From: an uncultured Aquimarina sp.
GTDB taxonomy: Bacteria > Bacteroidota > Bacteroidia > Flavobacteriales > Flavobacteriaceae
Assembly: GCF_947500065.1 (NCBI RefSeq)
Contig: NZ_CANMQT010000002.1
Span: 248,001 to 312,000, forward strand
DNA: 64,000 bases
Direction of reading: 5' to 3'
This document shows, piece by piece, positions 29,138 to 49,690 of this stretch. Position 1 is the first letter of the stretch; each line of letters opens with the position of its first letter. The notes below the pieces were generated by a model that was not told the origin of the DNA, did not search any database, and was given only the letters and a program-made list of their open reading frames with translations. The position numbers and the translations under genes were made by a program.

Positions 29138-30178
29138 TTATAGTTGTAAAGAGTAATGCTCTAAAGGTTGCTCTATTATTATTTTTGCCGCCTGCTCCGC
29201 TGTAATATCGCGCTGTGGATTAGCAAACATTTCATAACCTACCATAAATTTTTTTACCGTAGCTGATCTCAATAGTGGTGGGTAAAAAGACATATGCATA
29301 TGCCATTCTTCATGAGCGGATCCATCCGTCGGAGCTTGATGTATTCCTGCAGAGTAGGGAAATGAAGTTTTAAAAATATTATCGTATTTAGTTGTCAGTG
29401 ATTTTATAATCTCTGCAAAACTTACTAATTCCTCTTTGGTTAATTGATCTATACTTTTCCTATTTCTTCTTGGGATAATCATGGTTTCATAAGGCCAAAT
29501 AGCCCAATACGGAACCAAAGCTACAAAATGATCATTCTCTATCAACACTCTTTTTTTAAGTTCTAATTCTTGTTTCAAGTATGATCCGAGCAATGATTTT
29601 TTATGCACTTCCCAATACTTTTTTTGTTCTTTCGTTTTCTTTTTAATTTCCTCAGGAATAGAGCCTTGAGCCCATATTTGTCCATGTGGATGTGGATTAC
29701 TACAGCCCATTATTGCTCCCTTATTTTCAAAGATCTGGATGTAATTAATATCTTTCATATTACCCAAATTGATATACTCTTCCTGCCATAACTGAATCAC
29801 AGAAGTAATCTCTTCAACTTTCATTATAGGTAATGTAAGTGAATGATTCGGTGAAAAACAAACCACTTTACAAATTCCTATCTCAGCATCTGCCTTCAAC
29901 AAATTATCTCGATATTTTGTCTTAGGAATGTCTTCTAATAAAGCAGAAAAATCATTAGTAAATGAAAAAGGCTTATCATAATCTGGGTTTATAGCTCCAC
30001 TTGCCCTAAGATTTCCTGGACACAGGTAACAACTTTCTTCATAAGGAACTTCAGAAAACTTGCTTGGTTCTTCATTTTTTCCTTGCCATGGCCTTTTAGT
30101 TCTATGTGGCGACACTAATACCCATTCACCTGTTAGAATATTAAATCTTCTATGTGGATTGTCATTAAAATCTTGCAT
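29138..30178 (-). CDS. galT: Galactose-1-phosphate uridylyltransferase
   Basis: Leloir enzyme exchanging UMP between UDP-glucose and galactose-1-phosphate, cytoplasmic, 346 residues. The class I signature is complete: zinc cysteines in CYLCPGN (about 52-55), the nucleophile motif NPHPHGQIWA (about 160-169), and the later metal-site stretch HEEWHMHMSFYPPLLRS. It ends 13 bases from the GAF gene end and begins 2 bases after the galK stop, so galK-galT form an operon read leftward. It supplies UDP-galactose for GalE, encoded at the other end of the island. Confidence 0.96.
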   Translation of the reverse strand: MQDFNDNPHRRFNILTGEWVLVSPHRTKRPWQGKNEEPSKFSEVPYEESCYLCPGNLRASGAINPDYDKPFSFTNDFSALLEDIPKTKYRDNLLKADAEIGICKVVCFSPNHSLTLPIMKVEEITSVIQLWQEEYINLGNMKDINYIQIFENKGAIMGCSNPHPHGQIWAQGSIPEEIKKKTKEQKKYWEVHKKSLLGSYLKQELELKKRVLIENDHFVALVPYWAIWPYETMIIPRRNRKSIDQLTKEELVSFAEIIKSLTTKYDNIFKTSFPYSAGIHQAPTDGSAHEEWHMHMSFYPPLLRSATVKKFMVGYEMFANPQRDITAEQAAKIIIEQPLEHYSLQL

Positions 30179-30180
30179 AC

Positions 30181-31323
30181 TTATGACTGTATTAAAGTTC
30201 CTGGACTTGGAACCGTGATAAAAGAGGTTAAATCAATTTCGAATTGTTTTTTATACGCTTTTTTGACATTTAGAATGTAATCACTAACACTATCAGCATG
30301 TACTAAATTTATGGTACATCCTCCAAAACCACCACCCATCATTCTACAACCAATAACTCGCTCATAATCTTCAGAAAAATCAACCAAAAAATCTAATTCA
30401 GGGCAACTCACTTCATACTTATGTTGTAACCCTCTATGAGACTGATACATTAATTCTCCAAAACTTTCTAAATCTCCTTTTTCTAATAATTCTGAAGCCC
30501 GAAGCACTCGATTATTTTCTTCAATTATATAATAAGCTCTCTGATAAAGAACATCAGTAAGATCATCTCTAAATTCATCTAACATACTTTTAGTTACGTC
30601 TCTAAGAGATTTGACTTTGTTATATGTTTTAGAAATAATTTCTATTACCCTCTCACATTCTTCTCGACGTGTATTATATTCACTAGATGCTAGATTATGT
30701 GAGACGTTGGTATTGAGTAATAAAACCTTGTAGGGTTCAAAATTAGCATCAATTAATCGATAATGTTTTGATTTACAATCCAGAAGAATTACTTTCTTAT
30801 CCTCACTCATCACAGATGCAAATTGATCCATGATCCCACACTTTGTGCCAACATAGTTATGTTCTGCACGTTGTGAAAGCTCAACAAGTTCTATTTTAGA
30901 AAGATTAAGATTAAAAAGTTCGTTAAGTCCATATGCTAACCCACATTCCAAAGCGGCAGAAGAACTAATTCCTGCACCAATGGGTAATTGACTATCAATA
31001 ATACAATCAAACCCTTTTACTCTATCAGAAATTTTAGAGATTTCACTAAGCACTCCTACTATATAATTTTCCCATTCTTCAGTACTTGGTTTTAGTCTGT
31101 TTAAATTAATTGTAAGAATTTTATCATAGGTTGAACTGTACACCTTACACAGATGATTGGAATCATTTTTCTGTAATGAGAATATGATTTTTTTATCTAT
31201 TGCAGTAGGCATCACAAACCCATTATTATAATCGGTATGCTCACCAATAAAATTAATTCTTCCTGGAGAGTGAACAACCAACTCTGACTTAAAACCTTTT
31301 ACAAAACTCTTATTTATTGCCAT
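30181..31323 (-). CDS. galK: Galactokinase
   Basis: Phosphorylates alpha-D-galactose to galactose-1-phosphate, 380 residues, standard length. GHMP-kinase motifs are all present: the galactokinase signature GRINFIGEHTDYNNGFVMP (about 21-39), the ATP loop PIGAGISSSAALE (about 113-125) and the C-terminal GGGFGGCTINLV (about 333-344). First gene of the galKT transcript. Its -7 element and an inverted repeat lie upstream in the region shared with the Nudix-type regulator. No mutarotase (galM) is found in the island, which is tolerable because a retaining alpha-galactosidase yields the alpha anomer. Confidence 0.97.
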   Translation of the reverse strand: MAINKSFVKGFKSELVVHSPGRINFIGEHTDYNNGFVMPTAIDKKIIFSLQKNDSNHLCKVYSSTYDKILTINLNRLKPSTEEWENYIVGVLSEISKISDRVKGFDCIIDSQLPIGAGISSSAALECGLAYGLNELFNLNLSKIELVELSQRAEHNYVGTKCGIMDQFASVMSEDKKVILLDCKSKHYRLIDANFEPYKVLLLNTNVSHNLASSEYNTRREECERVIEIISKTYNKVKSLRDVTKSMLDEFRDDLTDVLYQRAYYIIEENNRVLRASELLEKGDLESFGELMYQSHRGLQHKYEVSCPELDFLVDFSEDYERVIGCRMMGGGFGGCTINLVHADSVSDYILNVKKAYKKQFEIDLTSFITVPSPGTLIQS

Positions 31324-31385
31324 TTTTCAATCTAATTTGATAAATAGGATCCAGACAAACACCCATTTTTATTCTGAAAATCAAA

Positions 31386-31393
31386 CAAATATA
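31386..31393 (-). promoter_or_regulatory. -7 element of the galKT promoter
   Basis: On the minus strand it reads TATATTTG, an exact TAnnTTTG, 62 bases before the galK ATG. The -33 side lacks TTG and is occupied by the adjoining inverted repeat. Confidence 0.55.
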
Positions 31394-31417
31394 ATAAATG
31401 TATTTTTTACATTTATT
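31393..31417. promoter_or_regulatory. Inverted repeat, candidate operator between galK and its regulator
   Basis: AATAAATGTA (31393-31402) and TACATTTATT (31408-31417) are perfect 10-bp arms around five T residues. The repeat abuts the galK -7 element and covers its -33 region, and lies 70 bases upstream of the divergent regulator. Related sequence (ATAAATG..TT.ACAT) occurs near the susC promoter and upstream of the glpK-glpD fusion. Confidence 0.5.
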
Positions 31418-31487
31418 GTTAATGCTGTATTTTTTACTAATTTGCGTCTAAATATATTTCGGATAATAACACCTGTTAACTAATAGC

Positions 31488-32174
31488 ATGAACTCATACC
31501 AAGAAAAAGATAAATTTTATGTTGCTGTTGATTGTATCATTTTTGGGTTTGAAGACGGAAAACTAAAGTTGTTAGTTTTTAATCGAAAAATAAATCCTTT
31601 CAAAGATTCATTATCCTTAATTGGCAGTTTTGTGAAAATTGGAGAAAGTGTTTCTGACGCCTCAAAAAGAATTCTTGAAGAATTTACAGGTCTAAGAAAT
31701 GTATATATGAAAGAACTAAAAACATATAGCTCGGTGGACAGAGATCCAGGATATCGTTGTATATCTGTAGCGCAATATGCATTAATCCGGATTCATAAAA
31801 GTATAAAAAAAATAGTAGAACAAAACGAAGCACAGTGGTTCGAAGTACAGGAACTCCCCGCGTTAATACTGGATCATAATCAAATGACAACGGATGCTTT
31901 ACGAAGAATTGAAGAACTTGCGAGGTATCGGCCTATCGGTTTTGAGCTTTTACCAGAGAAATTTACCATCCCTCAACTACAAGCACTTTATGAAGCAATT
32001 TATAGAAGAACATTAGACCCCAGAAATTTCAGAAAAAAAATACTCTCTTTTGATGTAATTATCAAGCTAGATGAAAAAGATAAAACTAGCTCTAAAAAAG
32101 GAGCCTTTTTATATAAGTTTGACCGTGATAAATACCAAAAACTACAAGAATCCGGATATAATTTTGAAATCTAG
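31488..32174 (+). CDS. NrtR/AraR-type transcription regulator with degenerate Nudix domain
   Basis: A 228-residue regulator built of an N-terminal Nudix fold (about 8-145) and a C-terminal winged helix (about 150-225, PEKFTIPQLQALYEAIYRR). The Nudix box GSFVKIGESVSDASKRILEEF lacks the second residue of the REUxEE core (Ile for Glu) and its last Glu (Phe), so pyrophosphatase activity is unlikely and the domain probably senses a ligand. Bacteroidota relatives such as AraR respond to sugars. Divergent from galK, with a palindromic site between, it is the prime candidate for controlling the galactose genes. Confidence 0.88.
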   Translation: MNSYQEKDKFYVAVDCIIFGFEDGKLKLLVFNRKINPFKDSLSLIGSFVKIGESVSDASKRILEEFTGLRNVYMKELKTYSSVDRDPGYRCISVAQYALIRIHKSIKKIVEQNEAQWFEVQELPALILDHNQMTTDALRRIEELARYRPIGFELLPEKFTIPQLQALYEAIYRRTLDPRNFRKKILSFDVIIKLDEKDKTSSKKGAFLYKFDRDKYQKLQESGYNFEI

Positions 32175-32219
32175 TATTTAAGCTTAATTTTATGCCAACC
32201 AGAATACACAATTATTAAT

Positions 32220-33236
32220 ATGTCACCGCTACTGCAAAAAATATATGATCTACAGGATATAAACACTATATCCAAACATGAACAAATTGTGCATGGTATC
32301 ATAGGAGCAATTGATTCTGGAATTCTGAAAGTCGGTGATAAGCTTCCTTCTATTAATGAAATGGTAGCAGAAGTCGGATATGCTAGAAAAACATTTGTAA
32401 AAGCATATACGGAATTAAAAGAACGGGGACTTGTAGAGTCTAAAAACCTTAAAGGCTATTATATCATTAGCGAAGAAACAAATGTCACCTTAAAAGTTGC
32501 ATTAATTCTATTTGCCTTCCATAGTTTCCAAGAAGATTTTTATAATACTTTTAGAAAAGAACTTGGTAAAAGATATCATATTGATATCTTTTTTCATCAT
32601 AATAACCTTTCACTATTTAAGACAATACTGGATAACATCTCCCGCAAATACGGAATGTATGTGGTCGCACCTATACAGCAAAAGGAAGTGCCTTCTTTGT
32701 TAAAGCAGATTTCTTCAAACCGGTTGTTAATTGTAGACCGTTATTTAAAAATGCCTAAAGATTATTCTTTTATTTCTCAGGAGTTTGAAGAAGTTACTTA
32801 TCAAAAACTGGTAGAACTCACTCCACAGATAAAAAAATACAATAGATTCGTATTATTTTTTAAAGAAAACTCAGATTTCCCTCCAGAAATTTTACTTGCA
32901 TTTAATCGATTTGTTAAAGATTATGATATTAATGGGGAAGTTGTTGAAAGTTACGATGCTACTACTTTACTGAAGAATACAGTGTACTTTTTTATTAGCG
33001 ATAATCAGCTATGGAAAGTACTAAAAGATGCTCGAAAAATGGAATACCGAATTGGATCTGATATTGGTATCCTCGCACACAATGATAACATTGTAAAAGA
33101 AATTGCTTTTGGGGGAATAACGACAATTTCTACGGATTTTACACAGATTGCAAAAAAAGCAGCAGTTTTTGTAAAAGAAGGAAATCCTATTCAGGAAATA
33201 GTTCCCACATACTTAAGACAACGTAATTCTCTTTAA
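32220..33236 (+). CDS. GntR-family transcription regulator with sugar-binding-like domain
   Basis: A 338-residue regulator. Residues about 10-80 are a GntR winged helix (EQIVHGIIGAIDSGILKVGD, then KLPSINEMVAEVGYARKTFV). The remainder (about 90-335) resembles the periplasmic-binding-protein/LacI fold, for example the segments VALILFAFHSFQEDFYNTF and IGSDIGILAHNDNIVKEIAF. Such proteins sense a sugar or derivative and control the adjacent SusCD locus. It follows the Nudix-type regulator by 45 bases and precedes susC by 309, so the two regulators are probably cotranscribed. Which ligand each reads is not visible. Confidence 0.9.
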   Translation: MSPLLQKIYDLQDINTISKHEQIVHGIIGAIDSGILKVGDKLPSINEMVAEVGYARKTFVKAYTELKERGLVESKNLKGYYIISEETNVTLKVALILFAFHSFQEDFYNTFRKELGKRYHIDIFFHHNNLSLFKTILDNISRKYGMYVVAPIQQKEVPSLLKQISSNRLLIVDRYLKMPKDYSFISQEFEEVTYQKLVELTPQIKKYNRFVLFFKENSDFPPEILLAFNRFVKDYDINGEVVESYDATTLLKNTVYFFISDNQLWKVLKDARKMEYRIGSDIGILAHNDNIVKEIAFGGITTISTDFTQIAKKAAVFVKEGNPIQEIVPTYLRQRNSL

Positions 33237-33428
33237 CCTTATCCACAACTCCGAGGTTTTAACATATTTCTATAAAAACCGATTCTTCAATACACCATAA
33301 TTCTGTGTGTTATATACTACAAAGTTTTCATCTTGAGAATTTCACAACACCTGCATTCTTTACCTGTCATATTTTCATATTTTAAACTATTTAATTAACT
33401 ATTATATAAAAAATTATGATTTTAAGTT

Positions 33429-33457
33429 TTGATATAAAAATAAATGCTTTACATTTG
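33429..33457 (+). promoter_or_regulatory. Promoter of the susCD island with overlapping repeat
   Basis: TTG (33429-33431), an 18-base spacer and TACATTTG (33450-33457) match the Bacteroidota promoter. The -7 box is also the right arm of an inverted pair AAATG-CTTTA-CATTT (33442-33456), so a protein bound there would cover the polymerase site. Confidence 0.6.
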
Positions 33458-33468
33458 CATAGTAGCAT

Positions 33469-33496
33469 AGAGTATCATAGCACAATAAAATACTCT
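33469..33496. promoter_or_regulatory. Inverted repeat in the susC leader
   Basis: AGAGTAT and ATACTCT with 14 bases between, centres 21 bp apart (two helical turns), just downstream of the predicted start of transcription. Possible operator for the GntR regulator; short enough to be chance. Confidence 0.3.
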
Positions 33497-33545
33497 GATC
33501 TAACTTTCAACTCAGAAAAGAACTATTAACAAACACACAAATCAT

Positions 33546-36500
33546 ATGAAGCGAAAAGTATTCAATCGGATTATGATGTTACTCATTGGACTTACAACCA
33601 CCTGTATTAGTGCTCAGCAAACTATCACAGGAACAGTAAGTGAACCTAACGGTCCATTACCAGGAGTAAACATTTTAGTAAAAGGCACTGATAATGGTAC
33701 AACTACAGATTTTGACGGTAAATACACCCTAAACAATGTAGTCGATGATGCCATTTTAATATTTAGTTATGTAGGTTTTATTACTACAGAAGTACCTGTA
33801 AATGGTCAAACTACAATAGACATTACACTTCAAGAAGATGCTGCAGCTCTTGATGAAATAGTAATTGTTGGATATGGTTCACAATCTAAAAGAGATGTTA
33901 CCGGTGCTATCTCCCAGATCAAGTCTGAAGATATTGCACAGGTTGTTACGGCAAACCCTACTTCAGCCTTACAAGGTAAGCTTGCAGGAGTTCAGGTAGA
34001 AACAGCAGGTGGAGCACCTGGAAGTCCCGCCAATGTTTTTGTGCGTGGGGTAAGTTCTTTAACTAACTCCTTTCCCCTATATGTAGTTGACGGTGCCATT
34101 TCTGATAATATAAATTTCTTAAATGCAAAAGACATTGTAAATCTTCAAGTGTTAAAAGACGCAACATCCGCAGCAATATATGGTTCCCGTGCTGCAAATG
34201 GAGTGATTATAGTTACTACCAATAGAGGTAAACAAAACTCTTCTCCTACTGTAAATATTGATATACGAAGTGGAGTTAACACACAACCCAAAAAACTTGA
34301 TTTACTTAATGGCTCCGAGTATATCACCTTTCTTAACCAACGTAGAATTAACGATGGTCTTGCTGGGAACATTCCTGATCCAGGAATCGATACAGATTTT
34401 CAAGATTTGAGCATCAACTCAGGTACAATTCAAGATTTTGGATTTAATATATCTGGTGGAGGTGAAAACTCAAAATACTTTTTTAGTGCTAATTATTACG
34501 ATGAAGAAGGATTATTAATCAGTGAAGAATTTAACCGTAAAAACGTACGTCTAAATAGTGAATTTAAAATAGGAAGGCTTAAAATTCAAGAATCTTTCGG
34601 GTTTTCAGAAAATCGATTTACCCGTAATAATGCTTTTGGAAATCAAGGAGGTACTGTTCCTATTATTCGTCCTTTCGCTCCTGAAAATGAAGGTGGATTT
34701 GAGGCTATTAATGATCCTATTTTTGGAATTGGAGGGACTAATAAATTTGCAAACGCACAATTAGTTAATGATCAAAATACAGAACGTAATTTTCTAGGAA
34801 ATATGAATTTTTCCTATGAAATCATAGAAGGACTTACTGCTAAACTCAATGTGGGGACTGAATACACTAATTTTTACAGAAATACATTTCAACCCACATT
34901 CTTTCAGAGTAATATAGATAGTGAGACAAATGCGAATCCCCTCAATGACCTTACTGAAGTAAGAGGAGAACGCTATGCTACAAATGTCGAGCCTACTCTT
35001 AATTATAAAAAAAGTCTTGGAGAACATAATTTTGATGTTCTCATAGGAGGTGCTCGCCAAGACATTACTACAAATACACTTGCTGTTTATGCCGAAGGGC
35101 TTCCTAGTAATAATATCACTAATATATCTCAGTTTACTGATAATATTATAAATTCAGGTGGAGGGCGTTTTGATAATAAACTTTTCTCAACTTTTGGACG
35201 TGTAAACTATAATTACAAGCAAAAATATCTGTTTACCGCTATAGTACGTCGTGATAAAACTTCTCTTTTTGCGGATGGATTTAATACAGGTACATTCCCT
35301 TCTTTCTCCGTCGGATGGGTCATTAGTGACGAAGGCTTCTTTAATCAAGACGGACTCATTAATTCGCTCAAATTTAGAGCTGGATATGGAGAATTAGGAT
35401 CTCAAAATGTGGATCCTTTTTCAAATCAATCCGTAGTAGAACCAAATTCTCCGATCACGGTTGGAGGTTCTTCAGGTCAAATTCCTGGATTTGCTATTAC
35501 AAGTTTAGTAGACCCTACCTTAAGTTTTGAAACATCAAAAACTATTAATTTTGGTGTAGACACTTCATTATTAGACAATAACTTAAAACTAAGTTTAGAT
35601 TATTTTAATAGAGATAATGAAGATGTGATCCAAGCTGTCGCGATTCCAGATTCTAATGGATCCGTAAACCCTGTATTTCAAAATGCTTCATCTATTAATA
35701 ATAAAGGTTTTGAATTTGAAGCAGCTTACAGCCATGATAAAGGCGGTGATTTCACCTTCAATGTAGGTTTCAATATCTCTGCAATCCAAAACGAATTAAC
35801 AGACTCCCCAAACCCAATTGTAGGTCCTTCATATAATGAAGAAGGATTAAGAGCCAATCGTTTTGAGGTTGGACAACCTTTGGGATTTTTCTTTGGGTTT
35901 AGGACAGATGGAATCTATAATGACCAAGCAGAAATAGACAACGATCCTTTTCTCGCTAATGATCCAGATCGAAGAGCATTGCTGCAACCAGGGGATTTTA
36001 GAAGAGTAGATATTAATAATGATGGTAGAATAAATGATGAAGATCAGACTTCTTTGGGTGATCCGACACCAGATTTCACGTATGGTATTAACCTGTCTGT
36101 AAATTATAAAAACTGGGATGTCGGAGCCTTTTTTAATGGAGTTCAGGGAAACGAAATTTATAATGTTACCAAATTCTTTGGGTACTTTTTCCTGGATGAT
36201 AACAAATTTGGAATTGTAAGGGATGCGTATACTCCTGAGAACCCAAATACAAATCTTCCTCGGGTAACAACACAAGATACTGCTGGAAATCAGCTTCCAT
36301 CAGATTTCTTTGTAGAAGATGGTTCTTTTTTCCGCCTGAAAACACTTGAAATAGGATACAACTTTAATGATTTTATAGGAAAAGAATGGGTCTCTAATGC
36401 TAGAGTATTTGCAAATGTTCAGAATGTATTTACTATTACAAATTATTCCGGATATGACCCCGAAATAGGATCCAACAATAGTGGATTAGGAACTAATCGT

Positions 36501-36617
36501 GGTTTCTTTGGTTTTACACCATTAACCAGTGCTGATTCTGTTTTTGACAGAGGACTTGACGTAAGGGCGCAACCTAGGCCTCGTACCTTTACAATTGGGA
36601 TACAAATGTCATTTTAA
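33546..36617 (+). CDS. SusC/RagA-type TonB-linked outer-membrane transporter
   Basis: TonB-dependent channel that imports the island's glycan or glycoside across the outer membrane together with the SusD lipoprotein. It has 1023 residues, normal for the family. A signal peptide (about 1-24, ending CISAQQ) precedes a carboxypeptidase-like beta domain (about 26-100, ITGTVSEPNGPLPGVNILVK). The SusC TonB-box region and plug follow (IVIVGYGSQSKRDVTGAI, about 106-123; GVIIVTTNRGK). A beta-barrel fills the rest and ends in Phe (IGIQMSF). susD follows after 21 bases. Neighbouring galactose and glycerol enzymes point to an alpha-galactoside cargo. Confidence 0.96.
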   Translation: MKRKVFNRIMMLLIGLTTTCISAQQTITGTVSEPNGPLPGVNILVKGTDNGTTTDFDGKYTLNNVVDDAILIFSYVGFITTEVPVNGQTTIDITLQEDAAALDEIVIVGYGSQSKRDVTGAISQIKSEDIAQVVTANPTSALQGKLAGVQVETAGGAPGSPANVFVRGVSSLTNSFPLYVVDGAISDNINFLNAKDIVNLQVLKDATSAAIYGSRAANGVIIVTTNRGKQNSSPTVNIDIRSGVNTQPKKLDLLNGSEYITFLNQRRINDGLAGNIPDPGIDTDFQDLSINSGTIQDFGFNISGGGENSKYFFSANYYDEEGLLISEEFNRKNVRLNSEFKIGRLKIQESFGFSENRFTRNNAFGNQGGTVPIIRPFAPENEGGFEAINDPIFGIGGTNKFANAQLVNDQNTERNFLGNMNFSYEIIEGLTAKLNVGTEYTNFYRNTFQPTFFQSNIDSETNANPLNDLTEVRGERYATNVEPTLNYKKSLGEHNFDVLIGGARQDITTNTLAVYAEGLPSNNITNISQFTDNIINSGGGRFDNKLFSTFGRVNYNYKQKYLFTAIVRRDKTSLFADGFNTGTFPSFSVGWVISDEGFFNQDGLINSLKFRAGYGELGSQNVDPFSNQSVVEPNSPITVGGSSGQIPGFAITSLVDPTLSFETSKTINFGVDTSLLDNNLKLSLDYFNRDNEDVIQAVAIPDSNGSVNPVFQNASSINNKGFEFEAAYSHDKGGDFTFNVGFNISAIQNELTDSPNPIVGPSYNEEGLRANRFEVGQPLGFFFGFRTDGIYNDQAEIDNDPFLANDPDRRALLQPGDFRRVDINNDGRINDEDQTSLGDPTPDFTYGINLSVNYKNWDVGAFFNGVQGNEIYNVTKFFGYFFLDDNKFGIVRDAYTPENPNTNLPRVTTQDTAGNQLPSDFFVEDGSFFRLKTLEIGYNFNDFIGKEWVSNARVFANVQNVFTITNYSGYDPEIGSNNSGLGTNRGFFGFTPLTSADSVFDRGLDVRAQPRPRTFTIGIQMSF

Positions 36618-36638
36618 AAACACACAAAAGAATACGAT

Positions 36639-38228
36639 ATGAAAACAATTAAAAAACTATTTCCTTTTATAACGCTATTACTTTTTGTAGTAATGTATTA
36701 TAGCTGTAACGAAGAAGACCTTAACATTTCAAATCCCAATAATGTAGCAGAACCCGAGTTCTTCCAAACGGAAAATGACTTTAGACTAGCTGTAAACGGT
36801 ATGTATCATCCTATAACCGCTGTTTTATTTTGGGGACGAGTTATCCATACAGGTGCTATGTTACGATCAGATGCCTATAACGTAATCCCATTCCAACAAA
36901 ACACGACTATGTCTACATTAGAAGGTCAGCCTGGCATCTCTAGATGGGCGGTAGACTTATATCCTCAATTATATCAATCTATCGCTAGAGCTAATAGAAT
37001 TATTGAAGAAGATGCAGAAAATGGTGTGCTATCAGGAGAAGTTCAAAACGAAATTTTAGGGCAAGCACATTTTCAACGTGCATTCTGTAATTGGTATTTA
37101 TTAAATCTTTTTGGAACTGCTCCACTTGTTATGCAAACACCTGACACGCAAAACCCAGAAGAATTCTTTCCTTCTAACGCAACACCAGCAATGTTTAATG
37201 AAGCAATCATCGCGGACCTTACTGAAGCAGTGAACAGGCTTCCGCAATCTTGGGGAACAAATGATGTAGGACGTCCTACCAGAGGAGCAGCACTCGCATT
37301 ACGAGGAAAAACCTATTTATACATGGAAGATTGGACAAATGCAGTTACGGACTTTACCGAAGTGACTACACTAGGATATTCTTTACTTCCTTCTGAGAAT
37401 TATAGGAATAATTTTTCGTCTAACTCTTCTGTAGAAAATAATTCAGAATCTGTATACGAACTTCAATATGTAGAACAAGACAATTTTGTTTGGGGAGCAG
37501 ATTCACCACTTACAGGATCTCAATCCAATTGGTACATTGATTACTCTCCTCCACATGTAAGTTTAGATCAAGGACATGTGATAAATCCACATATTCTTCA
37601 AATTTTTGAAGATAATGGAGATATGGTAAGAAGAAATGCAACCATCGCCTTTGATTATCCCGGAGCTACTGGATATGGAGGAGCTCCGTTTATAGAAGAT
37701 TTTGCTCCAAGCATCGAAATTGCAGAAAATCTAGGAGTTCCAGCTCTATTTTCAAGGAAATACGCAGGTTTAGATGAAGGTTTATCTAGCGCAGAAATTC
37801 CTGGTTTTGGACATACATTAGGAACTAACTGGAGAATCATACGGTATGCTGATGTATTATTAATGCTTGCCGAAGCTCTTAATGAAAATGGTGCCACACC
37901 AAATGCCATACCATTTATCAATCAAGTTAGAGAACGCGCACAGATTACTCTATTACCTAATACATTATCCAAAGAAGAAGTAGAACAAGCTATTATAGAT
38001 GAACGGGTTATGGAATTAACCGGCGAAGGACATCGCTTTTTCGATTTAGTACGTTGGGAATTAGCGGATGATATATTAGGTCCTGGTTCTACTGTAGCAG
38101 GAGGTCGTCATCCTAAATCTCTTGCAGGATCAGCAGCTGTATTTACTACTGGACAAGATGAACTTTTATGGATTCCATTACCAGAATTACAAGCCAATCC
38201 TAACTTGGATCAAAATGATGGATACTAA
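36639..38228 (+). CDS. SusD/RagB-type substrate-binding lipoprotein
   Basis: Surface lipoprotein that caps the SusC channel and binds the substrate, 529 residues. The lipobox cysteine is Cys 23 (FVVMYYSCNEED). The family's TPR-like helical scaffold is seen in GQAHFQRAFCNWYLLNLFG and AALALRGKTYLYMEDWTNAV, and the SusD C-terminal part in VMELTGEGHRFFDLVRW and LLWIPLPELQANPNL. Paired with the SusC gene in the normal order. A modest hairpin downstream may reduce read-through into the enzyme genes. Confidence 0.96.
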   Translation: MKTIKKLFPFITLLLFVVMYYSCNEEDLNISNPNNVAEPEFFQTENDFRLAVNGMYHPITAVLFWGRVIHTGAMLRSDAYNVIPFQQNTTMSTLEGQPGISRWAVDLYPQLYQSIARANRIIEEDAENGVLSGEVQNEILGQAHFQRAFCNWYLLNLFGTAPLVMQTPDTQNPEEFFPSNATPAMFNEAIIADLTEAVNRLPQSWGTNDVGRPTRGAALALRGKTYLYMEDWTNAVTDFTEVTTLGYSLLPSENYRNNFSSNSSVENNSESVYELQYVEQDNFVWGADSPLTGSQSNWYIDYSPPHVSLDQGHVINPHILQIFEDNGDMVRRNATIAFDYPGATGYGGAPFIEDFAPSIEIAENLGVPALFSRKYAGLDEGLSSAEIPGFGHTLGTNWRIIRYADVLLMLAEALNENGATPNAIPFINQVRERAQITLLPNTLSKEEVEQAIIDERVMELTGEGHRFFDLVRWELADDILGPGSTVAGGRHPKSLAGSAAVFTTGQDELLWIPLPELQANPNLDQNDGY

Positions 38229-41732: not shown

Positions 41733-43499
41733 ATGAAAGAAGCAATTACTTGCAATATAGAGGTGCTAAAGGAATCAGAGGATTTTCAGGTTGACATCTC
41801 TTTGCTCGAAGAACATAACGGAGTTTCCATTTACAATATTAATTTTTCTTCAGACTTAGAATTCCAACCTCAAAAAGTCACTTTTAAATGGAAAATTCCT
41901 GCAGTTAATGTAAAAGGTGTTTGGAAACCGACCACAGATTTTGCAAAAAGAATCATGGATGACTGGGAATTAGATCATATGGAATCTCGAATTTCTGTAG
42001 ATTCTCCTGTGATTTCATTGTTTGGTCATGATGATAGTAATATAATAACCTTTGCTTGTTCGGATGCTATAAACACAAAAAAGCTAAACGCCTTATATAG
42101 AGAAGAAGATAATTGTATTTATTGCCACATTTCTTTTTTTACGGAAAGACATCATTCCATAACAAATTATAACGCTCAATTAAGGATTGATCAAAGGGAT
42201 CAGCATTTCTCAGAATCTCTTAAAAATGTAGGGAAATGGTGGGAAAACTTTGAAAACCTCACTCCTGCTATTGTTCCAGATTTAGCAAAAGTACCTGTAT
42301 ATTCTACTTGGTATCAATTTCATCAAAAACTGGATATTAAAGACCTCCTTGAAGAATGCAAAATCGCTTCTACATTAGGATACGAATTGATCATTCTTGA
42401 TGATGGTTGGCAAACAAAAGATGAAAACAGAGGGTACGATTACACTGGAGATTGGTATCCCGAAAGAATTCCTGATATGGAAGGCTTCGTTAATGAAGTT
42501 CATAAAACCGGCATGAAATTAGCGTTATGGTATTCTGTTCCTTTTTGCGGAAAAAAATCCAAAGCTTACAAGAAATTTAAGGACAAGTTTCTTACTGAAG
42601 AACATCGTTGGGCTCCAGTATTTGATCCAAGATATCCGGAAGTACGATCCTACCTTATCAGTTTATACGTAACCGCATTAACCACATGGAAAATTGATGG
42701 GTTCAAACTTGATTTTATAGACGAATTTAAAGTGTATCCCAGTACTAAACTAACAAAAGAAGACGGAAGGGATTACTCCTCAGTAAATCTGGCAGTAGAT
42801 CGTTTAATGACCGACATAATTAGCTCATTACACGCCATTAAACCTAATGTTGTAATTGAATTTCGTCAGAAATATACTGGTCCTGCCATGCGTAAATATG
42901 GCAATATGTTTAGAGCGTTTGATTGTCCTGGAGATTCTGCCATGAATCGAGTACGCATTGCTGATATCAAAATGCTTTGTGGAAATACTGCTGTTCATAG
43001 TGATATGTTCACCTACCATAGAGAAGAGCCTCTAGAGATAAAAGCATTACAATTAGTGAACACCTTGTTCGGAGTTCCACAACTTTCCATTTTACTACAA
43101 AAAGCAACAGAAGATGAGTTATCTATGATTCGCTTTTACACACTCTATTGGAGAAATCACGCTAATGTTTTTTTAAATGGAAAGTTTACTCCTCATAAAC
43201 CTTTGGCTAATTACCCTATCCTTAAATCCTCTTCAGAAGAGCTCACAATTATAGGATTGTATGATAATTATGTAATCAATTTTGAAGAAAAAACACATCA
43301 AATAGATATTATCAACGGACAATCGGATGCTAAAATTATAGTAAGTAGTACTAAAAATTATGGAGCATACCATTCTACTACTTATGATTGTACCGGAAAA
43401 AAGGTGACAGAATGTAACTTAATGATTCTCATCGGGGTTGTTCAAATAAAAGTCCCTCCTTGTGGATTAATTAGGTTAGAAAAAAATACAGGAACTTGA
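41733..43499 (+). CDS. GH36-type alpha-galactosidase, cytoplasmic
   Basis: Retaining alpha-galactosidase, 588 residues from the ATG at 41733. An ATG at 41682 would overlap the previous gene and add 17 unusual residues. There is no signal peptide, so it acts in the cytoplasm on an imported substrate. GH36/melibiase motifs are ILDDGWQ (Asp 223-Asp 224), the nucleophile region DGFKLDFID (Asp 327), and CPGDSAMNRVR with Asp 401 as probable acid/base. An N-terminal beta-sandwich (about 1-160) precedes the TIM barrel. Set among galK, galT, galE and the glycerol-processing fusion, it most plausibly splits galactosyl-glycerol; raffinose-type sugars are the alternative. Start 31 bases after the FG-GAP gene. 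Confidence 0.88.
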   Translation: MKEAITCNIEVLKESEDFQVDISLLEEHNGVSIYNINFSSDLEFQPQKVTFKWKIPAVNVKGVWKPTTDFAKRIMDDWELDHMESRISVDSPVISLFGHDDSNIITFACSDAINTKKLNALYREEDNCIYCHISFFTERHHSITNYNAQLRIDQRDQHFSESLKNVGKWWENFENLTPAIVPDLAKVPVYSTWYQFHQKLDIKDLLEECKIASTLGYELIILDDGWQTKDENRGYDYTGDWYPERIPDMEGFVNEVHKTGMKLALWYSVPFCGKKSKAYKKFKDKFLTEEHRWAPVFDPRYPEVRSYLISLYVTALTTWKIDGFKLDFIDEFKVYPSTKLTKEDGRDYSSVNLAVDRLMTDIISSLHAIKPNVVIEFRQKYTGPAMRKYGNMFRAFDCPGDSAMNRVRIADIKMLCGNTAVHSDMFTYHREEPLEIKALQLVNTLFGVPQLSILLQKATEDELSMIRFYTLYWRNHANVFLNGKFTPHKPLANYPILKSSSEELTIIGLYDNYVINFEEKTHQIDIINGQSDAKIIVSSTKNYGAYHSTTYDCTGKKVTECNLMILIGVVQIKVPPCGLIRLEKNTGT

Positions 43500-43637: not shown

Positions 43638-43703
43638 ACAAAACATCTTCTTTTTTAAGATAATTACGAAAAAATATCTAGCAATAAAGCTTAACACCTT
43701 CTA

Positions 43704-46700
43704 ATGAGTAAAAAATATATTATAGCATTTGATCAAGGCACGACGAGTACCAGAGCTATCATTTTTGATAATAGAGGTATCATTTGTGGCATTTCTCAAA
43801 AAGAATTAACCCAACATTACCCTAAATCGGGATGGGTAGAGCACGATCCTCTTGAGATTTTTAAACATCAACAGGAAGTCTTTGAAGAAGTATTATCCAC
43901 ATCTAAGATATCCATTGATGAAATTGCCGGAATTGGCATAACTAACCAAAGAGAAACGACTGTAGTTTGGGATAAAAACACAGGAGAACCCATACACAAT
44001 GCAATTGTCTGGTTAGACAAGAGAACCTCGAAAATTTGTGAAAACCTTAAAGCAGCCGGACTCGAAGATTATGTCACTAAAAATACCGGACTCGTAATAG
44101 ACTCTTACTTTTCAGGAACAAAATTAAAATGGATATTAGACAATGTAGCGGGTGCCAGAGAAAAAGCTGAAAAAGGAGCGTTATTATTTGGTACCATCGA
44201 TACTTGGCTCATCTGGAAATTTACAAATGGGACTAAACACCTTACAGATCATTCTAATGCCTCTAGAACGATGCTGTATAACATTATACAACTAGAATGG
44301 GATAAGACAATGTTAACAGCATTAAACATCCCTGAGGCAATGCTTCCAGAGGTTCAACATTCCTCGTCGGATTTTGGAAGTATTTTATATCAAGGGAATG
44401 AAATTCCGATATATGGAGTAGCTGGTGATCAGCAAGCTTCATTATTTGGTCAAGGAGGATATAAGTCGGGAATCGCTAAAAACACATACGGAACAGGTTG
44501 TTTTTTATTATTAAATACTGGAAAAAAAGCGTATCAGTCAAAGAATGGTTTATTAACTACTTTATGTTGCAGTCTCCCTAATGATAAAATCAAATACGCT
44601 CTAGAAGGCAGTGTTTTTGTTGGAGGTGCTTCAGTACAATGGTTACGAGATAAATTACAAGTAATATCAAAAGCTTCTGAAACAGAAGAAATTTGTACAT
44701 CTACTCCTTCTTCTGAAGGTTTATATGTAGTTCCTGCATTTGCAGGTTTAGGTGCACCACATTGGGACATGAATGCTAAAGGAGCCATATATGGACTAAC
44801 ATTAGATTCTGGAAAAAACGAAATCATAAAAGCTACTGTCGATGCCCTAGCCTATCAAACCCGTGATGTACTTGATGCAATGGTAGAAGATAGCGGTAAA
44901 CTTATGAAAGAACTCAAAGTAGATGGCGGAGCATCTGCTAATAACTATTTAATGCAATTTCAGGCAGATATTCTTAATGTAGAAGTTGATCGACCTAAAA
45001 TGTTAGAAGTAACAGCACTTGGTGCTGCATTCCTGGCAGGAATAAAAGCTGGGGTTTGGACCAAAAAGGATATCTCAAAAATTAGAATTGTTGATACCAG
45101 ATTCAAACCCAAAATTACAGAGCATCAACGAAATCGAAAATATAGCGGATGGCAGGAAGCTGTAGAGCGCACAAAAACGGCCAACGCAACTATGCTCTCC
45201 GTAAAAGAAGAAGGGCCAATTCGTTTCTCGATACTCGATCGTGACAGACAATTACAACGGGCTCAAACAACCAAATATGATTTAATCATTATTGGAGGCG
45301 GGGTAACCGGAGCTGGTATTGCATTAGATGCTGCTTCCAGAGGACTAAAAGTATGTCTTGTTGAGAAAAATGATTTCGCATCAGGAACGAGTAATAAATC
45401 CACAAAACTTATTCACGGCGGATTACGTTATCTAAAACAAATGGAAATCGCTTTGGTAAAAGAATCCGGAAGTGAACGGGCAATGGTTCATAAACTCGCT
45501 CCTCATCTGGTAGTTCCAGAAAAGATGTTACTACCTCTCATAGAAGGAGGAACATATGGCAAAATGATGACTGCTATTGGGCTAAAAGTATATGATTTTC
45601 TTGCGAATGTAGAAGGAGATGATAAACGAAAAATGTTAAGCGTAGAAGAAACAATCGCCAAAGAACCTTTATTAAATAAAAGCAAACTTACTGGGGGAGG
45701 ATATTATGCAGAATATCGTACAGATGATGCCAGACTTACTGTAGAACTTTTGAAAAAAGCAGCTTCTTATGGAGCTAATATTATCAACTATTGTGAGATG
45801 ACCACTTTTAATTATGATGATGAGGGAAAAATTAAAAGTCTAGAATGCCTAGATCACAATTCTCAAAAAAGATTTATTATAAAATCTCGAAACTATGTTT
45901 CTGCTGCAGGTCCTTGGGTGGATCTATTGCGTGAAAAGGATCATTCTATGAGCAGTAAGCACCTACACCTTACAAAAGGCGTACATATTGTGTTCTCCAG
46001 AGAACGTTTTCCACTTACACAATCTATCTATTTTGATGTTCCTGATGGAAGAATGATTTTTGCAATTCCGAGAGGACGCGCTACCTATGTCGGCACAACA
46101 GACACCAATTATAGTTCTAATTTAAATCGTGTGGTCGCCACAAAAGAAGATTCAAAATACTTGCTAGATGCTGTAAATAACATGTTTCCTACTGTAAATC
46201 TTACTCCAGATGATATTGAATCTAATTGGGCTGGTTTAAGGCCATTAATCCATGAGGATGGCAAAGATCCTTCAGAATTATCTAGAAAAGATGAGATTTT
46301 TGTTTCTAAAACTGGATTGATCTCTATAGCTGGAGGGAAACTTACAGGGTATCGCAAAATGGCACAAAGAGTTATTGATGCTGTTTTAAAAACAATGAGT
46401 GATAAGAAAAGAGAGCAATTTTCAAAATCATATACTCAAAATATACCGCTAACAAGTGATCCTTTAAAAGATACTCAAGAAGTCGATCAATATTTAGAAG
46501 AAGTTAATCAACAACTTAGAGATATCGGGATACAAGATGAATATTATGGTTGGTATTTGGCCACCACGTATGGCAAACAAGCAGATACCATTATCAATAA
46601 AGCAAGTTATTTCTTAAACGATTCTATCGAAGAAAAACTGATACGATCAGAAGTCTGGTATGGAGTACATCATGAGATGATCAATGGTTTAGCTGATTTT

Positions 46701-46883
46701 TTTGTACGAAGAACAGGAAGATTATATTTTGACATTGCCAGTGTTCGACACTATCGTTCTATGGTTCAAGAAGATCTAATAAAATATTTAGGATGGGATG
46801 AACATCGTTTGGAAAATGAAAACAAATACCTTGATTTGTTATTACAAGACGCTTCTACCTATTACGAACATGAAATTGCTTAA
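43704..46883 (+). CDS. Bifunctional glycerol kinase-glycerol-3-phosphate dehydrogenase fusion
   Basis: One uninterrupted frame of 1059 residues joins two normally separate enzymes. Residues 1 to about 495 are a complete GlpK (FDQGTTSTRAIIFD at the start, VDGGASANNYLMQFQADI near 412-429, ending RKYSGWQEAVERTK). After a linker of about 15-20 residues, residues about 512-1059 are a complete FAD-dependent GlpD (Rossmann motif GGGVTGAGIALDAASRG from 531, then GTSNKSTKLIHGGLRYLKQ). Together they convert glycerol to dihydroxyacetone phosphate, with electrons going to quinone. The linker contains an in-frame ATG (45192, residue 497) from which a separate GlpD could also be made. No glpF is nearby; an SSS symporter follows after 45 bases. 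I know of no standard family with this fusion. Confidence 0.93.
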   Translation: MSKKYIIAFDQGTTSTRAIIFDNRGIICGISQKELTQHYPKSGWVEHDPLEIFKHQQEVFEEVLSTSKISIDEIAGIGITNQRETTVVWDKNTGEPIHNAIVWLDKRTSKICENLKAAGLEDYVTKNTGLVIDSYFSGTKLKWILDNVAGAREKAEKGALLFGTIDTWLIWKFTNGTKHLTDHSNASRTMLYNIIQLEWDKTMLTALNIPEAMLPEVQHSSSDFGSILYQGNEIPIYGVAGDQQASLFGQGGYKSGIAKNTYGTGCFLLLNTGKKAYQSKNGLLTTLCCSLPNDKIKYALEGSVFVGGASVQWLRDKLQVISKASETEEICTSTPSSEGLYVVPAFAGLGAPHWDMNAKGAIYGLTLDSGKNEIIKATVDALAYQTRDVLDAMVEDSGKLMKELKVDGGASANNYLMQFQADILNVEVDRPKMLEVTALGAAFLAGIKAGVWTKKDISKIRIVDTRFKPKITEHQRNRKYSGWQEAVERTKTANATMLSVKEEGPIRFSILDRDRQLQRAQTTKYDLIIIGGGVTGAGIALDAASRGLKVCLVEKNDFASGTSNKSTKLIHGGLRYLKQMEIALVKESGSERAMVHKLAPHLVVPEKMLLPLIEGGTYGKMMTAIGLKVYDFLANVEGDDKRKMLSVEETIAKEPLLNKSKLTGGGYYAEYRTDDARLTVELLKKAASYGANIINYCEMTTFNYDDEGKIKSLECLDHNSQKRFIIKSRNYVSAAGPWVDLLREKDHSMSSKHLHLTKGVHIVFSRERFPLTQSIYFDVPDGRMIFAIPRGRATYVGTTDTNYSSNLNRVVATKEDSKYLLDAVNNMFPTVNLTPDDIESNWAGLRPLIHEDGKDPSELSRKDEIFVSKTGLISIAGGKLTGYRKMAQRVIDAVLKTMSDKKREQFSKSYTQNIPLTSDPLKDTQEVDQYLEEVNQQLRDIGIQDEYYGWYLATTYGKQADTIINKASYFLNDSIEEKLIRSEVWYGVHHEMINGLADFFVRRTGRLYFDIASVRHYRSMVQEDLIKYLGWDEHRLENENKYLDLLLQDASTYYEHEIA

Positions 46884-46928
46884 AAATAAAAACTTTTTGG
46901 GGCGCTATTAATAAAAAACTTTACAACT

Positions 46929-48575
46929 ATGGGAATAATTTCATTTATTGGGTTCACACTATTAGTAGCAATATATGCCTGGTGGAAGACAAAAGATACT
47001 GATGAAAAGTCTGCTGATGGGTACTATCTAGGAGGAAGGAGTCTTGGTGCAATTACCATCGCAGGTTCATTGCTTCTTACCAATTTATCTGCAGAACAAA
47101 TAGTAGGACTAAATGGACAAGCATTTACGGAAGGAATTCTTGTAATGGCGTGGGAAACATTAGCAGCTATTGCCATGGTATTTACGGCTATATGGTTACT
47201 TCCTAAATATATGAAAGGAGGTATAACTACAATTCCTGAGTTTATAGAAAAACGTTTTGACGAAAATACGAAAGCGATCTTATCTGTGTTATTTTTAATT
47301 GCATTTAGCATTGTATTGCTACCTACAATTCTCTATTCCGGATCCTTAGCTTTTAGTACTATGTTTGATTTACCATCTTTATTAGGTTGGTCTAAATCCG
47401 CTACCATTTGGCTTTGCGTATGGAGCATTGGATTGATAGGGATTATATATGCCATTTTTGGAGGCCTAAAAGCTGTAGCTGTATCAGATCTTATAAATGC
47501 TATAGGATTATTAATAGGTGGATTATTAATTCCATATTTTGGATTAAAGTTAATTGGTGATGGGAGTATGATGCATGGTATTAACACCCTATGGACAGAA
47601 AATCAAGATAAGTTTAATGTCACTGGAGGAGTTACTTCATCTATACCACTAGGAACTATTTTTACGGGAATGATGATAGCACAAATGTATTATTGGGGAA
47701 CGAATCAATCTATATTACAACGTGTTTTTGGTGCAAAAAGTTTAAAAGAAGGGCAAAAAGGAATGATGCTGGCTGCCTTTGTGAAATTCTTAATTCCTGT
47801 AATCGTTGTACTACCTGGTATTATCGCCTGGAATGTATTTAATGGCGACCTAAGTTCAGCAGATCAAGCATATCCAGAACTCGTGCGCAAAGTACTCCCT
47901 CCTGCATTGCTTGGTTTTTTTGCCGCTGTGCTTTTTGGAGCAGTTTTAAGTTCATTCAATAGTTTATTGAATAGTAGTGCAACACTTTTTGGGTTTGATC
48001 TTTATAAGAAATTTTTTAAGCCTGATGCGAATGAACTTCAGACCGTAAAAGCTGGGAAATTATTTGGATTGGTTATCGCTATAATTTCTATGACCATTGC
48101 GCCATTTATCGCTAATGCCCCAGAAGGATTATTTTCTTATATACAGCAAGCATTAGGAAGTCTAAGTGTCCCGATTCTGGCAGTAGTAGTTATTGGTATT
48201 TTAACAAAGAAAGTACCTGCCATTGGAGCCAAGATAGTTTTAATTGCTGGAGTTCTTATGTACTTGATAAGCCTACTTGTTTTAGGTCCTCATTTTACTA
48301 GTGAAGCATTATCTGAAGCCATTAGCACAGGCATTACGGATCCCGATCAACTAGCCATTATTAAAGCTGAGGCGTACCCGCATTTCTTGCATATTATGGG
48401 AATTTTATTCGTAATTAATGTGGTTATTATGCTTATCATAGGAATGATAAAACCAAAAACAGATATATATGTTCCTATCACGACGGAAGCGATAGATACA
48501 ACTCCTTGGAAATATGCCTTAATAACCGGAACACTCATTACTATTTTGGTAATCAGTACGTATTTAATATTCTGA
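46929..48575 (+). CDS. SSS-family sodium:solute symporter
   Basis: Inner-membrane sodium-coupled transporter of the SLC5-like family, 548 residues with about 14 hydrophobic segments. Signatures include GYYLGGRSLGAITIAGSLLLTNLSAEQIVGL (split across residues 32-62, the helix-1 sodium site), GGLKAVAVSDLINA, and ALSSFNSLLNSSATLF-like sequence near 340. The pattern resembles the SGLT/galactose branch. In this island it is the only inner-membrane carrier, so it should bring galactose or the intact galactosyl-glycerol from the periplasm. The intact form is favoured because the alpha-galactosidase is cytoplasmic. It lies 45 bases after the fusion gene. Confidence 0.92.
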   Translation: MGIISFIGFTLLVAIYAWWKTKDTDEKSADGYYLGGRSLGAITIAGSLLLTNLSAEQIVGLNGQAFTEGILVMAWETLAAIAMVFTAIWLLPKYMKGGITTIPEFIEKRFDENTKAILSVLFLIAFSIVLLPTILYSGSLAFSTMFDLPSLLGWSKSATIWLCVWSIGLIGIIYAIFGGLKAVAVSDLINAIGLLIGGLLIPYFGLKLIGDGSMMHGINTLWTENQDKFNVTGGVTSSIPLGTIFTGMMIAQMYYWGTNQSILQRVFGAKSLKEGQKGMMLAAFVKFLIPVIVVLPGIIAWNVFNGDLSSADQAYPELVRKVLPPALLGFFAAVLFGAVLSSFNSLLNSSATLFGFDLYKKFFKPDANELQTVKAGKLFGLVIAIISMTIAPFIANAPEGLFSYIQQALGSLSVPILAVVVIGILTKKVPAIGAKIVLIAGVLMYLISLLVLGPHFTSEALSEAISTGITDPDQLAIIKAEAYPHFLHIMGILFVINVVIMLIIGMIKPKTDIYVPITTEAIDTTPWKYALITGTLITILVISTYLIF

Positions 48576-48673
48576 TAATTACTATGGGTATGTTTTTATC
48601 TGTTTTTAGTTAAGTTATACCAGGGATTATTAACTTTACAACTTCACATCAAAAAACTCTTAAAAAGTAAAAA

Positions 48674-49690
48674 ATGAAAATATTGGTAACTGGTGGTTTG
48701 GGGTTTATAGGATCACATACAGTAGTAGAATTACAAAATGTAGGATATGAAGTTGTTATTATTGATAACTGCTCTAACTCTTCTGTAGATGTATTAAAAG
48801 GCATTAGTACAATTACAGGAAAAGAACCTATTTTCGAGAAATTTGATCTTAGGGAAAAAAGTAAGGTTCAAGATTTTTTTACTCGTCATGCTGATATTAA
48901 TGGTGTAATTCATTTTGCAGCATCAAAAGCTGTTGGTGAAAGTGTAGAAAATCCATTATTGTACTATGAAAATAATATCAATGTACTCATATATATTCTG
49001 CAAGAGTTACAGAAAAAAGATAAAACCAATTTTATATTCAGTTCTTCGTGTACCGTTTATGGTCAGGCAGATGAACTACCAATTACTGAAAATGCACCGG
49101 TAAAAGCTGCAGAATCTCCGTATGGAAATACCAAACAAATTGGAGAAGAAATCATACGTGATACGTGTAAAGTAAAATCAAACTTACATGCTATTGCTCT
49201 ACGTTATTTCAACCCCGTTGGAGCACATCCTTCTGCAGAAATTGGTGAACTCCCTATAGGAGTTCCTCAAAATTTAATTCCATTCATTACCCAGACAGGT
49301 ATTGGACTTCGAGAACAACTTTCTGTTTTTGGTGACGATTACCCTACAGAAGATGGAACTTGTATTCGGGATTACATACACGTAGTTGATTTGGCAAAAG
49401 CTCATGTAGTTGCGTTACAACGTCTTTTAAATAGTAAAAACACAACTAACTACGAAGTATTTAATGTTGGAACGGGAACTGGAAGTTCTGTATTAGAAGT
49501 GATAAAATCTTTTGAAAAAGTATCTAAACAAAAATTGAACTACAAAATTGTAGATAGAAGAGAGGGTGATATCACAGCTGCTTATGCCAATACTGACAAA
49601 GCCAATAATGAACTAGGCTGGAAATCTCAAAGAAATCTAGATGAAGCATTATCCTCTGCTTGGAAATGGGAGCAAAAGGTGAGAGGTTAG
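48674..49690 (+). CDS. galE: UDP-glucose 4-epimerase
   Basis: Interconverts UDP-galactose and UDP-glucose with bound NAD, closing the Leloir cycle, 338 residues. It shows the Rossmann loop GGLGFIGSHT (7-16), the Ser/Tyr/Lys catalytic set FSSSCTVYG and SPYGNTK (Tyr about 152), and substrate residues ALRYFNPVGAHPSAEIGE. It ends the galactoside island, 98 bases after the symporter, and is followed by a strong bidirectional terminator. galK and galT lie at the other end, 17 kb away. Confidence 0.97.
   Translation: MKILVTGGLGFIGSHTVVELQNVGYEVVIIDNCSNSSVDVLKGISTITGKEPIFEKFDLREKSKVQDFFTRHADINGVIHFAASKAVGESVENPLLYYENNINVLIYILQELQKKDKTNFIFSSSCTVYGQADELPITENAPVKAAESPYGNTKQIGEEIIRDTCKVKSNLHAIALRYFNPVGAHPSAEIGELPIGVPQNLIPFITQTGIGLREQLSVFGDDYPTEDGTCIRDYIHVVDLAKAHVVALQRLLNSKNTTNYEVFNVGTGTGSSVLEVIKSFEKVSKQKLNYKIVDRREGDITAAYANTDKANNELGWKSQRNLDEALSSAWKWEQKVRG

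Follow-up and report, generated by a model that had tools for sequence, protein, structure and literature searches.

What substrate would require an outer-membrane uptake pair, an alpha-galactosidase-like enzyme and the pathways for both galactose and glycerol within one gene cluster? This question is raised by positions 29,138 to 49,690 of a 64,000-nucleotide stretch of DNA (hereafter the window) from an uncultured Aquimarina sp. (contig NZ_CANMQT010000002.1), whose genome comprises 6.57 Mb and whose proteins most resemble those of Aquimarina. An earlier note, prepared from the sequence alone, had described galT, galK, two regulators, SusC, SusD, an FG-GAP/ASPIC protein, a GH36 protein, a GlpK-GlpD fusion, an SSS symporter and galE in this region, and had proposed that they serve the uptake and catabolism of floridoside. 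All eleven open reading frames are present where the note placed them, and profile matches recover every family that it named. The comparisons presented below suggest that the locus is probably a repressor-controlled operon for uptake and catabolism of an alpha-galactosylglycerol, with floridoside or isofloridoside as the leading candidates.

In the proposed mechanism, SusC, SusD and the FG-GAP/ASPIC lipoprotein would carry the glycoside across the outer membrane, and a vSGLT-like sodium symporter would move it intact across the inner membrane. The GH36-like enzyme would then split it in the cytoplasm to yield galactose and glycerol, wherein GalK, GalT and GalE would pass the galactose to the Leloir pathway and the GlpK-GlpD fusion would convert the glycerol to dihydroxyacetone phosphate. 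A GntR protein would occupy an operator overlapping the promoter and would be released when the substrate or one of its products is present. We prefer an alpha-galactosylglycerol because this account uses every enzyme gene, and floridoside and isofloridoside are the simplest molecules that give the best fit. The gene content, the linkage, the common motif and the position of that motif at the promoter were computed, and the absence of a signal peptide was judged by eye; from these we infer the substrate, the enzyme activity, the direction of transport, GntR binding and the inducer.

One article (PMC10972271) describes floridoside as an osmolyte of red algae, a galactosyl-glycerol. Searches of the open-access literature (titles and abstract openings), a body that leaves subscription journals and bioRxiv preprints largely outside, turned up no description of a bacterial floridoside locus. 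The component families are all known; the novelty, as far as seen, lies in how they are combined, in the motif and in the substrate that is proposed.

Linkage of the GH36-like gene to glycerol and galactose genes

One scan returned 307 relatives in named genomes, and the best 80 of these 307 loci were compared with the window proteins. Glycerol (glp) genes are present in the examined flanks of 39 of the 80 loci (glpK in 38, glpD in 39), arranged as a GlpK-GlpD fusion in 22, as separate neighbors in 16 and as glpD alone in one. The earlier note had asked for exactly this comparison, and a glycerol fusion that is never linked to the alpha-galactosidase gene, which it took to speak against its proposal, is not what the loci contain. 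An SSS gene whose product shares at least 50% identity with that of the window accompanies the GH36-like gene in 71 loci and a GntR gene does so in 56, with galE found in 17, galK in seven and galT in three. The order GH36-GlpKD-SSS-galE is typical of Dokdonia and of most fusion-bearing Aquimarina loci, the exceptions being two loci that lack galE (L025 and L027) and one with extra genes (L010). The order GH36-SSS-GlpK-GlpD is found in the remaining genera that carry glp genes.

A sample of the family, consisting of 149 genomes with one per genus, gave a close GH36 relative (at least 53% identity) in 13 genera, six of which carry GlpK within 10 kb and seven of which do not. Among genera without a nearby GlpK, one (G104) has the motif described below, SusC, SusD, GH36, SSS, galK and galT in a single run (L175), and four loci (L023, L024, L063 and L072) carry glycerol and galactokinase genes together. 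Catabolic genes for both expected products occur in the cluster, often not within one genome.

Other genes also recur near the cluster. A maltose/galactoside acetyltransferase-like gene lies behind GH36 in 18 of the 80 loci, including those of Zobellia (for example, L037 positions 11745-12305), and in four loci of Aquimarina (L010, L011, L012 and L026) the gene after SSS encodes a HAD-type phosphatase of about 261 amino acids.

A tandem-repeat motif at uptake and glycerol genes

The GntR protein matches PF00392 above the cut-off and PF13377 weakly (23.5 bits, below the cut-off of 26.5). The AraR-type architecture joins a GntR helix-turn-helix domain to a LacI-like effector domain. The GntR gene is no more than about 10 kb away from GH36 in all but one (G046) of the 13 GH36-bearing genera, and the protein is likely to be the repressor of the operon.

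The loci have in common a 24-bp tandem repeat between the GntR and SusC genes, with the consensus AGTAGCATAG[TA]GTATCATAGCATA. A palindrome search ahead of SusC mostly returned A+T-rich stretches, and the tandem repeat was found through shared 10-mers. Each of two patterns, run over the whole genome, matches only the window copy, for which shuffling predicts 0 occurrences in the window. The motif matrix was prepared from 29 distinct sites, wherein the SusC sites constitute the training set and the sites at GH36 and glp genes are independent. Sites scoring above 12 bits precede SusC or GH36 in 67 of the 80 loci, a weak extra site next to galK occurs in two loci of Dokdonia, and L020 has one further weak site. 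A control of 1.67 Mb of reversed sequence yielded no site above 12 bits, the best score being 11.0.

A TAnnTTTG box, the Bacteroidetes -7 promoter element, is located within 16 bp ahead of 73 of the 90 sites scoring above 15 bits, as compared with 0.8% of random stretches. The location of the motif over the transcription start suggests that a repressor acts there. This arrangement of promoter box and operator-like motif (33450-33484) was absent from the earlier note. Matches with a single mismatch in 37 genus genomes numbered 34 against 16 for a reversed-pattern control, and with this much noise no broader regulon could be delimited.

The same motif is found at glycerol genes located elsewhere in the genome. 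Unlinked glp genes were evaluated in 15 genomes reached through the loci (17 loci considered, with L015 and L019 left out) and in seven genomes from the family sample. Among the former, the motif stands at glpK, glpD or the fusion in 12 genomes (six of the seven from Aquimarina, each of the three from Zobellia that were tried, and three more) and is missing in three. Among the latter, it is present in three (G001, 31.4 bits; glpD of G073, 21.5 bits; G016, 12.4 bits) and missing in four. Taken together, 15 of 22 GH36-bearing genomes have the motif ahead of their unlinked glp genes, or 14 if the marginal G016 site (12.4 bits against a cut of 12) is not counted.

The controls were 20 genomes, hand-picked from among those of the sample that have glp genes and lack a GH36 match at 1e-60. 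Only one of them (G066, which also carries the GntR gene) has the motif, in a comparison wherein control regions were 2.7-kb upstream stretches and the loci-derived regions were 4.2-6.2 kb and included the gene body. The difference gives a Fisher p of 2e-5 by genome (15/22 versus 1/20) and of about 0.003 by our own genus grouping (7/13 versus 1/20), neither value being corrected for the tree. Neither group includes G002 or G029, two genomes that carry distant GH36 paralogues only and whose glp regions have no site.

No MIP channel relative is found in the 1.5-kb flanks of 11 motif-bearing unlinked glpK genes of the genomes reached through the loci, and a MIP channel gene lies beside all four of the motif-less glpK genes in these genomes. 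The lack of a channel gene beside motif-bearing glpK suits glycerol that is made inside the cell. In the window genome, a single MIP gene is present, on a different contig from glpK.

It seems that a single regulon brings together uptake across the outer membrane, glycerol catabolism and an alpha-galactosidase-like enzyme that is probably intracellular. We also lean, with less assurance than for the window locus, toward a more general model wherein marine Flavobacteriaceae would have a widespread floridoside regulon. This regulon would comprise one GntR repressor with a tandem-repeat operator over SusCD, a new family of cytoplasmic GH36-like floridosidases and the glycerol pathway, whose glp genes, fused or split, would enter and leave the operon yet retain the operator.

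A related arrangement is present in one genus (L172, positions 8808-18273), where a GntR gene with 46% identity lies beside SSS, SusC, SusD and the gene of a GH97 enzyme; the motif there is weak (16.2 bits). The GH97 protein is possibly a different enzyme family performing the same job.

The GH36-like enzyme and the choice of substrate

The window GH36-like protein was aligned with 15 relatives. Eleven of the 15 begin no more than two residues from position 41733, and the other four carry dissimilar extensions; the true start is therefore probably near 41733, rather than 41682 as the note had listed. Its statement that a signal peptide is absent agrees with our inspection, since none was seen by eye in any of the 16 sequences. 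The shared start and the lack of a visible signal peptide suggest that the enzyme is probably cytoplasmic and that its substrate is imported whole. A paralogue within the window genome (43% identity) has an N-terminus of the lipoprotein-signal type, as judged by eye.

From its likely start the protein has about 588 amino acids, and it exceeds the cut-off for the Melibiase barrel (PF02065). At an E value of 0.001 it matches neither the N-terminal nor the C-terminal GH36 domain (PF16875 and PF16874), both of which are matched by a canonical GH36 protein of L010. The latter (PF02065, 341.8 bits; signal peptide by eye) is encoded at positions 10725-12959 of that Aquimarina sp. RZ0 locus, between the GH36-like gene and GlpK-GlpD. 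In an alignment to solved structures, D344 of the window protein falls on the aspartate of the KWD motif, and it is invariant in the 16 sequences. A fold search with the predicted model gave GH36 enzymes, alpha-galactosaminidase, GH31 alpha-galactosidases and MYORG as the 37 best matches, with 11-16% identity in the fold alignments. We describe the protein as a predicted, divergent alpha-galactosidase-like enzyme. One report states that a GH36 alpha-galactosidase makes isofloridoside by reverse hydrolysis (PMC8509150), which we count in favor of an alpha-galactosylglycerol substrate.

The observations gathered in this paragraph, and several in those that follow, weigh against that choice. The enzyme is far from characterized GH36 proteins; its acid/base residue may be D414 or D418, the profile alignment to canonical proteins being ambiguous; its predicted model has a mean confidence score (pLDDT) of 73, with segments 75-142 and 410-424 below 50; and alpha-glucosidases and a sulfoquinovosidase appear lower among the 50 fold matches. 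No PF18206 domain was found in the window genome, so a life on red algae is not supported for this organism. Across genera, PF18206 exceeds its cut-off in 4 of 13 that bear GH36 and in 7 of 136 others (Fisher p 0.008, not corrected for the tree), an association that is suggestive only. SusCD systems, moreover, usually import larger glycans.

Some of the exceptions in gene linkage would fit an ordinary alpha-galactoside locus, for melibiose, a raffinose-type sugar or a red-algal oligosaccharide, with glycerol genes adjacent since both answer algal exudate and not since the enzyme yields glycerol. Galactose and glycerol catabolic genes are linked to GH36 or share its motif, with exceptions: glp genes are missing from the examined flanks of 41 of the 80 loci (some on short contigs), the motif is missing at glp genes in 7 of the 22 genomes, and L010 has its additional canonical enzyme with an apparent signal peptide. 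We nevertheless consider this explanation unlikely, because glp genes, both fused and separate, recur in the operon, the motif stands at many glp genes elsewhere, and the 11 motif-bearing glpK genes have no MIP relative beside them.

A slightly less probable source of galactose and glycerol is an algal membrane lipid, digalactosyl diacylglycerol, whose deacylated head group (alpha-Gal-1,6-beta-Gal-glycerol) would lose its alpha-galactose to the GH36-like enzyme before a beta-galactosidase finishes the breakdown. The earlier note had dismissed such head groups on the grounds that a beta-galactosidase is absent. This holds at the window locus, where family matches of the locus genes include no linked or co-regulated beta-galactosidase, but not in four of the 80 related loci (L060, L068, L075 and L076), where a GH2 LacZ gene is divergent from the GntR gene; L077 has a cut-off GH2 piece where its contig ends, some 10 kb behind GH36. 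However, a six-frame search with that GH2 protein found relatives in these five loci only, and a scan of 10 of the 74 unidentified open reading frames of at least 550 amino acids gave no match to a beta-galactosidase family, other families not having been profile-searched in all loci. In the window genome the sole motif site precedes SusC, and thus no beta-galactosidase lies behind the motif. Furthermore, the GH2 protein of L075 looks secreted by eye and the GH36-like enzyme does not, and a periplasmic exo-beta-galactosidase would be unable to act while the alpha-galactose is still attached.

Least probable in our estimation is that the GntR protein is a general regulator of glycerol or glycerol-3-phosphate, with SusCD-GH36 as one part of a broader regulon that handles several compounds containing glycerol, galactosylglycerol being just one among them. 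Consistent with such a role, two loci (L170 and L173) combine the same GntR gene and motif with SusC/FG-GAP clusters and have no GH36 within the stretch examined. In L177 and L178, both from Aquimarina, GlpK-GlpD is unlinked; it follows an FG-GAP/FG-GAP/PAP2/GyrI-like cluster and has the motif immediately ahead of it. Of 136 genera that lack a close GH36, 6 nevertheless carry the GntR gene, and one of these (G029) has a GH36 relative of 44% identity nearby. Set against this are the presence of the GntR gene in 12 of the 13 genera with a close GH36 and the occurrence of the motif in only 1 of the 20 chosen glp regions from genomes lacking GH36.

Additional enzymes in two loci bear on the same point. 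In Maribacter (L078), GH36-SSS-GlpK-GlpD is followed at 16658-18583 by a gene for a lipoprotein-like, MGH1-like glycoside hydrolase (PF22422, 160 bits) of the glucosylglycerate/mannosylglycerate-hydrolase kind, with a weak match to the glucosylglycerate hydrolase model (56 bits against a cut-off of 550). Mannosylglycerate (digeneaside) is another red-algal osmolyte, and a second osmolyte served by the same operon is possible. In L072 (9950-17943), GH36-SSS-GlpD-galK is followed by a GH13 alpha-glucosidase resembling oligo-1,6-glucosidase. Given these two loci together with L170, L173, L177 and L178, the regulon may serve more than one glycerol-bearing substrate.

Two other candidates were rejected. 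Sulfoquinovosyl-glycerol does not fit because no sulfoglycolysis gene is among the locus family matches, and galK, galT and galE are present. Alpha-glucosylglycerol was discarded since galactose genes recur and the top fold matches are galactose-active, yet L072 has its GH13 alpha-glucosidase.

An alpha-galactosylglycerol, as had been proposed for this locus, is strengthened as the substrate by the linkage and by the motif common to GH36 and glp genes, whereas the exact molecule is still something we infer. If floridoside is correct, bacteria with such loci would act as a sink for a major osmolyte of red algae, the motif and regulator could be used to mark floridoside turnover in metagenomes, and the locus would show plainly that SusCD can serve a small osmolyte instead of a polymer. 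The occurrence of the motif and regulator across many genera makes the substrate question directly testable.

Layout of the locus and comparison with known systems

Features of the candidate alpha-galactosylglycerol locus, in window coordinates.
Feature	Position	Strand	Basis
galT, galactose-1-phosphate uridylyltransferase	29138..30178	-	TIGR00209, 473.7 bits
galK, galactokinase	30181..31323	-	TIGR00131, 314.7 bits (cut-off 226.65)
Perfect 10-bp inverted repeat (spacer 5 bp), flanked by galK and the NUDIX regulator gene	31393..31417		1 window match, 0.04 expected
NUDIX/NrtR-AraR-like regulator, divergent from galK-galT	31488..32174	+	PF21906, PF19368, PF00293
GntR regulator, weak periplasmic-binding-like match	32220..33236	+	Profile match
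TAnnTTTG promoter box TACATTTG	33450..33457	+	Pattern match
24-bp operator-like motif, tandem repeat TAGCATAG/TATCATAG	33461..33484	+	Shared among loci
SusC-type TonB-dependent outer-membrane transporter	33546..36617	+	TIGR04056, 782 bits
SusD-type surface lipoprotein	36639..38228	+	Profile match
FG-GAP/ASPIC repeat protein, TTG start, lipoprotein by eye	38339..41701	+	Profile match
GH36-like clan GH-D alpha-galactosidase-like protein	41733..43499 (listed open reading frame from 41682)	+	PF02065, 40.5 bits (cut-off 27)
GlpK-GlpD fusion (glycerol kinase and glycerol-3-phosphate dehydrogenase)	43704..46883	+	Profile match
SSS sodium/solute symporter, vSGLT-like	46929..48575	+	Profile match
galE, UDP-glucose 4-epimerase	48674..49690	+	TIGR01179, 410.5 bits
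15-bp terminator-like hairpin between galE and the convergent next gene	49716..49749		Scored on - strand; 0.5 expected

The hairpin listed last agrees with the terminator that had been placed after galE as the boundary of the locus. The inverted repeat is possibly the operator of the NUDIX regulator gene, and an almost identical palindrome is located at the equivalent position in L012. The GlpK-GlpD fusion is the sole full-length match within the window genome. To the left of the gal genes, positions 19186-28038 hold a heavy-metal efflux-like cluster (HlyD/CusB, PepSY-TM, HMA-MauE, DUF3347, OEP and an RND transporter), and positions 60235-63935 encode a Por-secretion-tail protein and a 946-amino-acid leucine-rich-repeat protein with a TTG start.

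With adjacent SusC and SusD genes and a catabolic enzyme, the region qualifies as a SusC/SusD utilization locus. As in a polysaccharide utilization locus of Bacteroidota, a SusC-SusD pair is accompanied by a surface lipoprotein, a glycoside hydrolase, a regulator and an inner-membrane transporter. Unlike such loci, it has no gene for a glycoside hydrolase that would be secreted or surface-borne and act on a polymer, as judged from profile matches and, for the GH36-like protein, from inspection for a signal peptide by eye; its enzyme is probably cytoplasmic, and galactose and glycerol enzymes are included. The locus reads as an uptake system for a small glycoside.

The symporter is matched to structure 2xq2 with an E value of 2.5e-65. 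Like sodium/galactose symporters of the vSGLT type, it retains Q69, E88, K294, Q428, Y263 and W264 in the printed alignment, but it differs at S91, N260, M73 and Y87, all ten being vSGLT sugar-contact positions. This mix of kept and changed positions would suit a galactoside bearing an aglycone, and the changed positions possibly accommodate such a glycoside.

The GH36-like protein resembles the GH36 alpha-galactosidases (AgaA/AgaB and those of L. acidophilus, L. brevis and T. maritima) in its clan GH-D barrel, in the alignment of D344 with the KWD motif and in its top fold matches. It is distinguished from them by its length, by the undetected N- and C-terminal domains, by the low identity of the fold alignments and by its membership in a conserved family of its own, with 54-85% identity to the window protein in the 80 loci. 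The locus shares the GlpK and GlpD enzymes with the classical glpF-glpK-glpD operon, but here there is no channel gene, and the two enzymes are fused and lie behind a GntR gene and the tandem-repeat motif.

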